DNA from: Bacteroidales bacterium | GTDB taxonomy: Bacteria > Bacteroidota > Bacteroidia > Bacteroidales > UBA12170 | Direction: 5' to 3' | DNA: 32,661 nt | Assembly (NCBI GenBank): GCA_021157585.1 | Contig: JAGGWH010000088.1 | Location: forward strand, 1-32,661 | Shown here: piece by piece, positions 2,763 to 4,925 of the stretch | How the letters are laid out: every line of letters begins with the position of its first letter | Position numbering within the stretch: the first letter of the stretch is position 1 | The notes under the pieces: generated by a model | The model's input: the letters and a program-made list of their open reading frames with translations, nothing else | The model's database searches: none | Told to the model about the DNA's origin: nothing | Made by a program: the position numbers and the translations under genes

Positions 2763-3929
2763 TTAGTAAATAATTTCTTCTCTGAAATTCTTCACTATGG
2801 AAGAAAACGAATTATGAACTGATTGACCCAAGCCACATTTTGAAGTTATCTTCATTGTTTCGGCTAATTTTAATAATTGATTGAGATATGAAGATGGTTT
2901 TTCGCCATGTTTTACCGCTTTAATACCTTTTAAAAGCTGTTGAGTACCAACTCTACAAGGCGTACATTGTCCACAAGACTCTTCTTCAAAAAATTCCAAA
3001 TAATCTTTTAACACATTATACATAGATCGAGATGAATTAAAAACCATCATAGAACCTCCCGTTGGTATTCCCTCAAATCCAATAATTTTATTTTTAAAAT
3101 CTTTTCTTGGAACACAATGACCAGAAGCTCCTCCAACCTGAACGGCTTTAGTATCGCCATTACCAAATTCTTTAACAAATTCATCTACCCCTATTCCTAA
3201 TTCTAATTCGTAAATTCCTGCTTTTGCAGTATCACCGGAAACAGAAAATACTTTTGATCCTCGAGAATCAGTGGTTCCTAATTTTTTAAAGGGCTCCACA
3301 CCAATCCGTATAATCATACTGCAATACACCAATGTTTCTACATTATTGATAATTGTCGGTTTTCCATTATACCCAGCTTTAGTAGGATAAGGAGGCTTAT
3401 TACGAGGTTCGCCTCGCTTTCCTTCCATAGACTCAAAGAGAGCACTTTCCTCCCCACAAATATACGCCCCGCTACCTGAAAACATTTTAATAGTAAAGTC
3501 TAAACCTAAATTTTGAATATTCTGATTAAACTTCTCTATTAAGGGTAATAAATCTTTTAAAAGAAAGTTATACTCATTTCTTAAATATATAAACCCTTCT
3601 TTTGCTCCAATAGCATAGGCACAAATTGCCATTCCAACAAGAACTTTACTTGGAACAACATCTAATATTTCCCTATCCTTAAATGTTCCGGGTTCACCTT
3701 CATCTGCGTTACAGATAACATATTTAATATCACTATCTTCCTCTTTTGCTAATTTCCATTTTAAGCCGGTGGGAAAACCAGCTCCGCCTCTACCTTTTAA
3801 ACCCGAACTAATGATTTGATCTATAATCTCATCGGGCTTCATAGATAGAGCTTTCTTAATCACTTCGAGTGGTTCACAACTAGCGCAATCGAAAATTATA
3901 TCTACTTTTTTTAATCCTTTATTTTTCAT
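2763..3929 (-). CDS. hydB: NADH-binding flavoprotein subunit of the hydrogenase (HydB/HndC/NuoF-like), short form
   Basis: NuoF-like subunit that binds FMN and NAD(H) and passes electrons through a [4Fe-4S] cluster to HydA. The NADH-binding glycine-rich loop is GRGGAGFPTGLKW (47-59), the FMN region is CNADEGEPGTFKDR (73-86), an SLBB-like region follows, and the cluster motif is SCGQCTPCRVG with C319, C322, C325 and a distant C365 in KCGLGQS. At 388 residues it is the bare NuoF core. The HydB/HndC subunits of electron-bifurcating enzymes are usually near 600 residues, with an added N-terminal thioredoxin-like [2Fe-2S] domain and a C-terminal 2[4Fe-4S] domain; both are absent. The genes on each side begin within 2-18 bp, so no lost fragment is hidden. 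This suggests a ferredoxin-independent NADH hydrogenase, as inference only. Confidence 0.9.
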   Translation of the reverse strand: MKNKGLKKVDIIFDCASCEPLEVIKKALSMKPDEIIDQIISSGLKGRGGAGFPTGLKWKLAKEEDSDIKYVICNADEGEPGTFKDREILDVVPSKVLVGMAICAYAIGAKEGFIYLRNEYNFLLKDLLPLIEKFNQNIQNLGLDFTIKMFSGSGAYICGEESALFESMEGKRGEPRNKPPYPTKAGYNGKPTIINNVETLVYCSMIIRIGVEPFKKLGTTDSRGSKVFSVSGDTAKAGIYELELGIGVDEFVKEFGNGDTKAVQVGGASGHCVPRKDFKNKIIGFEGIPTGGSMMVFNSSRSMYNVLKDYLEFFEEESCGQCTPCRVGTQQLLKGIKAVKHGEKPSSYLNQLLKLAETMKITSKCGLGQSVHNSFSSIVKNFREEIIY

Positions 3930-3931
3930 AA

Positions 3932-4411
3932 CTAAGAATTTGTAAGATGTTGAGGATCTATTTCACATAATATTTTAACTGCTTTTTCAGGGCTTACTTC
4001 GGTATAAATTTCATCATTGATTAGCATAACAGGACCTTTATGACACCAGCCTAAACAATTGGTCTCTATTAAGGAGAATTGCATATTACGAGTAGTTTCC
4101 CCCATTTTTATTTTAAGTAATTTTTCAATTGCAGTCACCAACTCCTGTTTCCCTGCCATTTTACAACTAATCGTCTTACATACCCTGATAATATTTTTAC
4201 CCATCGGTTTAGTATACAAGAAAGAATAAAATGAAGCCGTTCCATAAACTTCGGCAGATGATATATCAAGGGCTTTGGCCACTTCAACCATTGAGCTTTC
4301 TGAAAGATAATTTTCATCGGCAACAATACCTTGCAAAATAGGCAACAAACTATTGCGTGAGTTGCCATGCTTTTCAACTAAATTCCGTATCAAATTTTCG
4401 CTTTGAACCAT
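3932..4411 (-). CDS. hydC: Thioredoxin-like [2Fe-2S] subunit of the hydrogenase (HydC/HndA/NuoE-like)
   Basis: First gene of the hydrogenase operon. It is a NuoE-like protein of 159 residues: an N-terminal helical bundle containing YGTASFYSFL, followed by a thioredoxin-like fold that ligates one [2Fe-2S] cluster through C78, C83, C119 and C123 (VCKTISC ... TNCLGWC). In this family the subunit contacts the flavoprotein and takes part in electron transfer near the FMN. The start is ATG at 4411, preceded by a good promoter match about 30 bases upstream. Only 2 bp separate its stop from the hydB start, which implies translational coupling. The cysteine spacing and length are those expected for the family. 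Confidence 0.92.
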   Translation of the reverse strand: MVQSENLIRNLVEKHGNSRNSLLPILQGIVADENYLSESSMVEVAKALDISSAEVYGTASFYSFLYTKPMGKNIIRVCKTISCKMAGKQELVTAIEKLLKIKMGETTRNMQFSLIETNCLGWCHKGPVMLINDEIYTEVSPEKAVKILCEIDPQHLTNS

Positions 4412-4440
4412 GATAAAATTCTTATTGTTAATTCGTTCAC

Positions 4441-4474
4441 AAATATACTTATTTATTGTTATTAAATTAACAAC
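4441..4474 (-). promoter_or_regulatory. Candidate hydCBA promoter
   Basis: On the minus strand TATATTTG (4441-4448) fits TAnnTTTG. TTG at 4472-4474 lies 23 bases upstream as a weak -33 element at the edge of the usual spacing. The -7 element ends 29 bases before the hydC ATG. Confidence 0.5.
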
Positions 4475-4500
4475 AACTATCTAAAAACATAAATTTATAG

Positions 4501-4577
4501 TCATTCTAAATAGTACCCTTTTATATAATGCTGTTTATAAGATATTTATACGTATTATTATTTCTTATTTAGAATGA
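4501..4577. repeat. 12-bp perfect inverted repeat with a 53-bp spacer
   Basis: TCATTCTAAATA (4501-4512) is exactly repeated in inverted form as TATTTAGAATGA (4566-4577). The spacer is AT-rich and holds no reading frame. It lies upstream of the hyd promoter and downstream of nothing else. It could be a paired regulator-binding site, a large hairpin or the ends of a miniature element. I see no clear target duplication, so the nature is open. Confidence 0.5.
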
Positions 4578-4665
4578 GAAGAAAACAAAACAATTGAAAA
4601 CGACGACAATTAGCTCTACAAATCTCCTTACTGTTTTTACCCCAAAAAAGGGACTAAATAAATGG

Positions 4666-4695
4666 TTTGAAATGTAAAATATCTTTGTAATTTTG
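4666..4695 (+). promoter_or_regulatory. Upstream promoter (P1) toward rplM operon
   Basis: TTTG (4666-4669), 18 bases, then TAATTTTG (4688-4695): a full match to the Bacteroidota vegetative promoter. Transcripts from here would carry a leader of about 225 nt before rplM. A second TAnnTTTG (TATCTTTG, 4680-4687) sits directly beside it but lacks a well-spaced -33 element. Confidence 0.6.
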
Positions 4696-4846
4696 CGCTC
4701 GCTAGTACAACAGCACCTGATTAATTTTAATTTAAATTAATTAGTAATAATCGGACCTGATTAATAGGCAAAACAGGACAATTATTAGGGCTTAAACAGA
4801 AGATAGATGAAATGGTTAAGTTTATCTCGAATTAAGGCTCTGAAAA

Positions 4847-4878
4847 TTTGGTAATTACTGCTTTTGTTTCTATTTTTG
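4847..4878 (+). promoter_or_regulatory. Proximal promoter (P2) of the rplM-rpsI-rpsB-tsf operon
   Basis: TTTG (4847-4850), 20 bases, then TATTTTTG (4871-4878), a full consensus match. The expected start is about 40 bases before the rplM ATG. The short leader includes a small hairpin built from CCATTT and AAATGG just after the start. Confidence 0.65.
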
Positions 4879-4925
4879 CAGCCCATTTTAAAAATGGATA
4901 GGTTCAACAAGTAAAATAATTGTAA

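Follow-up and report, generated by a model that had tools for sequence, protein, structure and literature searches.

The three-subunit HydABC enzyme of Thermotoga maritima contains a HydB of 626 aa that has a C-terminal 2[4Fe-4S] bridge arm and a Zn site, and the arm and the Zn hinge near FMN have been proposed to serve the ferredoxin branch, according to the description by Furlan et al. (2022, PMC9499530); in the sequence comparison made here this HydB showed A/M at the NADH site, F near FMN and a GGPSG motif. Non-bifurcating enzymes of a similar build are already known and were described in 2017 and 2020 from syntrophic bacteria. As reported by Losey et al. (2017, PMC5626996), Hyd1ABC of Syntrophomonas wolfei is a trimer that produces H2 from NADH without ferredoxin and whose HydB (407 aa) has neither the N-terminal [2Fe-2S] nor the C-terminal [4Fe-4S] regions; the loss of B3/B4 in S. 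wolfei has been tied to lost bifurcation (PMC11406978). HydAB of Syntrophus aciditrophicus, whose HydB carries HydC as an N-terminal fusion, is likewise described as a non-bifurcating, NADH-dependent enzyme that needs no ferredoxin to form H2 from NADH (Losey et al. 2020, PMC7311640). The same authors proposed a linear electron path for non-bifurcating enzymes and gave as marks of their HydB a smaller number of Fe-S domains, T or S at T. maritima position 232 with K, S or A at 234, Tyr for Phe near FMN, and the absence of GGPSG from the SLBB region.

The window, that is, the whole stretch of 32,661 nucleotides analysed here, carries a hydC-hydB-hydA locus on the minus strand, with gaps of 2 bp between hydC and hydB and 18 bp between hydB and hydA. 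On the basis of Pfam, PDB matches and a HydA tree, hydA (960-2744) was assigned as a 594-aa subunit with NuoG-like [2Fe-2S] and [4Fe-4S] domains, an H-cluster domain and a small-subunit tail; its Pfam matches (E up to 0.001) included Fer2_4, NADH-G_4Fe-4S_3, Fer4_Nqo3, Fe_hyd_lg_C and Fe_hyd_SSU among others. The two best solved-structure matches, both near full-length, were 7q4v_A and 8a6t_A, from complexes which we take to be HydABC of Acetobacterium woodii and Thermoanaerobacter kivui, respectively, both with a long HydB chain (599 and 630 aa). Beyond HydA residue 591 no Pfam domain match was found, unlike T. maritima HydA with its extra C-terminal [2Fe-2S] domain (PMC9499530). hydC (3932-4411) encodes a 159-aa NuoE-type thioredoxin-like subunit with one [2Fe-2S], as indicated by its Pfam match (2Fe-2S_thioredx, E up to 0.001) and by its best PDB match, the HydC chain 8a6t_C.

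The middle gene, hydB (2763-3929), encodes 388 aa, for which Pfam, alignment, residue comparison and a tree all pointed to a NuoF core alone, with sites for NADH, FMN and one [4Fe-4S] cluster. Its only Pfam matches (E up to 0.001) were Complex1_51K (41-201) and NADH_4Fe-4S (306-386), and residues 157-553 of T. maritima HydB (PDB 7P5H chain B, 626 aa) aligned to it. The T. maritima protein extends beyond the matched part by about 156 residues at its N-terminus and 73 at its C-terminus; both end regions are thus missing from the window HydB, and the adjoining genes, 2 and 18 bp away, leave no space for either. The sequence-only reading, which had recognised a 388-aa NuoF core with one [4Fe-4S] motif between closely flanking genes, was borne out by the Pfam search and the T. 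maritima alignment, as the three subunits comprised a HydB devoid of extra Fe-S domains, a HydC with one [2Fe-2S] and a HydA with the H-cluster. C319, C322 and C325 (2955-2975) and C365 (2835-2837), invariant in all 11 aligned short HydBs, probably coordinate the single [4Fe-4S] cluster, a role that we presume by analogy with NuoF.

Since PMC7311640 rates the number of Fe-S domains as difficult to use as a mark of mechanism, domain count alone was set aside as evidence, and the residues at the cofactor sites were compared. T82-F83-K84 of the NADH site (3678-3686) lay opposite A232 and M234 of T. maritima HydB, Y156 near FMN (3462-3464) took the place of the F of bifurcating enzymes, and the SLBB region had GGASG at 266-270 (3120-3134) where bifurcating enzymes have GGPSG. 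T82, K84, Y156, GGASG and the lack of extra Fe-S domains thus agree with every mark of non-bifurcating HydB cited from PMC7311640 above. In the alignment Y156 stood opposite T. maritima F312; the Phe is printed as position 367 in PMC7311640, which we take as a slip for 312 because T. maritima 367 aligned as Val.

A further comparison concerned the B2 site, for which C438, C476, H525, C531 and C536 are given as ligands in A. mobile BfuB, its His being absent in non-bifurcating homologues according to the account in PMC9304861. With 7t2r_B used as the A. mobile chain, whose numbering fits, C438 corresponded to S302 and C476 to K340 of the window HydB, and H525, C531 and C536 fell beyond the end of the chain. 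The window HydB lacks these B2 ligands and also the C-terminal B3/B4 [4Fe-4S] pair of the Bfu family, and the F conserved in that family near FMN and the A and M conserved at its NADH site (PMC9304861) are replaced by Y, T and K. Among 129 sequences besides the window's, divided into those with A/M and F (A/M-F; n = 39, the tailless T. maritima stretch included) and those with T or S/K and Y (T/K-Y; n = 90), Cys at the C438 position was found in 38/39 A/M-F vs 1/90 T/K-Y proteins, and the His-Cys-Cys tail in 36/39 vs 1/90. The C476 position was Cys in just 10 of the 39 A/M-F sequences, so K340 was not counted as a mark.

Taken together, the domains, the alignment, the T/K, Y and GGASG residues, the missing B2 site, the HydB and HydA trees and the lack of a spare subunit gene argue strongly that hydCBA encodes a trimeric non-bifurcating NADH:H+ oxidoreductase of the [FeFe]-hydrogenase type, whose likely function would be the production of H2 from NADH without ferredoxin. 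The NADH-only, S. wolfei-type trimer suggested by the sequence-only reading is thereby supported at the sequence level by residue and domain marks and by the absence of a second set of subunits. The likeness to S. wolfei Hyd1ABC (407-aa HydB vs 388 aa here) and to S. aciditrophicus HydAB holds by published description rather than by alignment (PMC5626996, PMC7311640); the window differs from the former in phylum and in the presence of PFOR and RnfC in its genome, and from the latter in that hydC is a separate gene. With the T. maritima enzyme it shares the three-subunit plan and the core electron path but not the long HydB (PMC9499530).

From these comparisons we infer an activity and an electron path for the window enzyme. 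NADH would deliver a hydride to FMN in HydB, from which single electrons would travel via the [4Fe-4S] cluster of HydB and then the clusters of HydA to the H-cluster, the site of proton reduction to H2; the [2Fe-2S] of HydC would be a side cluster off the main path. With neither the flexible C-terminal 2[4Fe-4S] arm in HydB nor the B2/Zn hinge site, the enzyme would have no ferredoxin-linked branch.

The host genome (2.93 Mb, 183 contigs, 95.5% complete) contained a single Fe_hyd_lg_C match, indicating one [FeFe]-hydrogenase, together with HydF (477 bits). PF01512 was found in two proteins, HydB and RnfC, and PF01257 in HydC only; no second [FeFe] HydA, NuoF-type HydB or NuoE-type HydC was found in this 95.5% complete genome. 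Also present were a full-length PFOR (1926 bits), RnfC (575 bits), NqrA (596 bits) and a succinate dehydrogenase/fumarate reductase flavoprotein split into two pieces that sit at contig ends (C77 and C61), neither of which reaches the family cut-off. A 316-aa frame upstream of rnfC looks like RnfB given its two Fer4 matches, and a 328-aa frame lies downstream. This inventory suggests that the cell probably makes reduced ferredoxin, converts it to NADH via Rnf and has outlets for NADH other than H2. Ferredoxin reduced by PFOR would be re-oxidised by Rnf to yield NADH, and H2 release would on that route be limited by the NADH/NAD+ ratio and by H2 pressure.

H2 formation from NADH would be favoured at low H2 pressure. 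The life with H2-consuming partners that the sequence-only reading drew from this does not follow, given the genome's capacity to reduce ferredoxin (PFOR), its RnfC, the other possible NADH sinks (NqrA, flavoprotein pieces) and the caution of Losey et al. (2020), who considered such a hydrogenase unlikely to serve as a sole indicator of syntrophy, the same type occurring in genera not known as syntrophs (PMC7311640). The same non-bifurcating enzyme could instead run mainly in reverse, oxidising H2 so as to supply, for instance, Nqr and fumarate reduction with NADH. In vitro the S. aciditrophicus enzyme does reduce NAD+ with H2 (PMC7311640), and NqrA and the sub-cut-off flavoprotein pieces would suit such a role; PFOR and RnfC are in keeping with a fermenter that has to shed electrons, and although sequence cannot tell direction, we regard predominant H2 oxidation as rather unlikely.

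It is very improbable that the enzyme still bifurcates with the aid of an unlinked ferredoxin-like subunit that supplies the missing Fe-S domains. Two small 2[4Fe-4S] frames that might be suspected of this role do occur in the genome (65 aa on contig C56 and 76 aa on C58), but the latter adjoins a weak PFOR-family match and may belong to another oxidoreductase, the genome has a single PF01257 gene, and the NADH- and FMN-site residues of HydB are of the non-bifurcating type and its B2 site is missing. The window contig offered no candidate for such an additional subunit, since its sole PF12838 match was HydA itself, and that variant was rejected. The use of NADPH instead of NADH as the carrier seems more improbable still, because T82 and K84 match what the NADH-dependent enzymes in the comparison of PMC7311640 have at these positions.

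As to the distribution of HydB forms, 37 short HydB loci were examined, 12 from the genus (the window's own copy included) and 25 from the order, with the duplicate L003 left out. All 37 had a HydA neighbour, T/K and Y, and no GGPSG; the stop-to-stop frame measured 388-425 aa in 36 of them and 510 aa in L053. Within the genus the short HydB occurred in all 11 genomes, and a long HydB (599-651 aa frame) adjoining its own HydA was present in seven of these (G002, G003, G004, G005, G006, G008 and G010). An eighth, G009, had an A/M-F frame broken off at a contig end (L030), and no long HydB was found in G000 (the host), G001 or G007, the last of which is only 74% complete. G009 also carried two short HydBs, L014 and L015, which share 67 and 65% identity with the window HydB and each adjoin a HydA. 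Across the order, which we take as Bacteroidales in the GTDB sense, a close relative of the window HydB (E 1e-130 or better) was detected in 153 of 393 genomes drawn, representing 90 of 206 genera, with 59-100% identity among the matches listed; length and residues were determined at the 37 short loci rather than for the matches of all 153 genomes. The short form thus looks common in the order.

A HydB tree was built from the core of 96 of 131 sequences by a quick search with SH-aLRT support and was midpoint-rooted for drawing. It separated 58 rows, all T/K-Y and including the query, from 38 rows that comprised T. maritima and every A/M-F sequence (SH-aLRT 100), a split obtained in a set that does not include the characterised non-bifurcating sequences of S. 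wolfei and S. aciditrophicus. The short and long HydBs of sister genomes sat on opposite sides of this branch. The query and 20 short forms chosen at an identity of at least 59% formed one set with support of 99, which included records labelled Spirochaetales (L100), Bdellovibrionales (L082) and Marinimicrobia (L073). Three T/K-Y HydBs (L111, L117 and L148) had long branches and were attached on the T. maritima side, a placement that may reflect convergence or early branching. In the HydA tree (56 rows), 33 partners of T/K-Y HydB and 23 partners of A/M-F HydB were separated by a single change (support 77), and 31 of the 33 fell into one set with support of 99; the program warned of long branches that meet around L142.

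Judged by these trees and loci, short HydB is a separate lineage and no truncated bifurcating HydB, and its description as reduced in the sequence-only reading is misleading, as it mostly occurs alongside a long HydB in sister genomes. That hydB is merely a truncated or misassembled bifurcating HydB, as the 599-651 aa frames beside HydA in seven sister genomes might suggest, was rejected as next to impossible, since all 37 short loci are alike, the adjoining genes lie 2 and 18 bp off, and short and long forms coexist in sister genomes across a fully supported branch. The domains that had been attributed to long HydB were checked in three long HydBs of sister genomes as a control: the C-terminal Fer4 was present in 3/3, and the N-terminal thioredoxin-like match in 2/3, so the latter is not universal.

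The relation between the Fe-S tail and the residues was surveyed at 128 loci besides the window's own, of which 127 were distinct, the HydB frames of L071 ('Marinilabiliales bacterium isolate BM520', a named record within the order) and L036 (an order genome) being identical. A C-terminal ferredoxin motif was found at 33 loci (two motifs in 32, one in L127), and all 33 had A/M, F and GGPSG. Of the 95 loci without such a motif, 90 had T or S/K and Y, and five were A/M-F: the broken L030 and L118, L122, L147 and L150. L147 and L150, from records named Verrucomicrobiia and Hydrogenedentota, were frames of 549 and 560 aa with A/M, F and GGPSG. L118 and L122 were frames of ~1030 aa with ~500 extra C-terminal residues, which may represent a fusion.

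As a strict mark of bifurcation GGPSG was rejected, because 11 of the 90 T/K-Y proteins possess it. These carriers (L099, L102, L103, L105, L106, L108, L115, L130, L134, L144 and L146) were NuoF-like frames of 599-779 aa whose fetched flanks showed no [FeFe] HydA on the same strand; they look HoxF-like to us. A similar caution applied to the family label of HydA. The window HydA scored 870.8 bits against NCBIfam NF040763 'NADH-dependent [FeFe] hydrogenase, group A6' (cut-off 765 bits), and this cut-off was passed by all ten HydAs tested, six of which stood beside a long bifurcating-type HydB (L129, L132, L149, L159, L163 and L164). The label was therefore rejected as evidence of an NADH-only mechanism: its name fits partners of both HydB forms and can mislead on mechanism. 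Since the two forms separate in the HydA tree, a finer HydA classification may be possible.

What is new here is the spread of the short form in the order, its coexistence with the long form in one genus, and the cautions on NF040763 and GGPSG. No title on short HydB in Bacteroidales was found among the titles listed in a literature search of openly accessible papers, and no word beginning with 'bacteroid' occurred in the main text of PMC7311640. Whether NADH alone or NADH plus ferredoxin is used sets the workable H2 pressure and the ATP yield of a fermenter, and genome-based assignments of mechanism should take into account how long HydB is and which residues it has at the NADH and FMN sites. 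We raise as a tentative suggestion, somewhat short of probable, that the NADH-only route through short HydB is standard in much of the order, with ferredoxin oxidised by Rnf, energy conserved, and the resulting NADH used for H2 without confurcation. In that case the thermodynamics of H2 would be misjudged by any survey that labels all trimeric enzymes with such a HydA 'electron-confurcating', and H2 pressure would decide which of the two forms is used in sister species that carry both.

HydBs of the short form that share 60-68% identity with the window HydB were also observed in L073, L077, L082 and L100, from records labelled Marinimicrobia/Neomarinimicrobiota, Bdellovibrionales and Spirochaetales; these occurrences may reflect gene transfer or binning mistakes. 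Within the window, a 514-bp intergenic region (4412-4925) precedes hydC. It contains TATATTTG at 4447-4440, in our view similar to a Bacteroidota -7 box; a TTG lies upstream of it at a poor spacing, and the genes divergent from hydC across this region are presumably rplM-rpsI.
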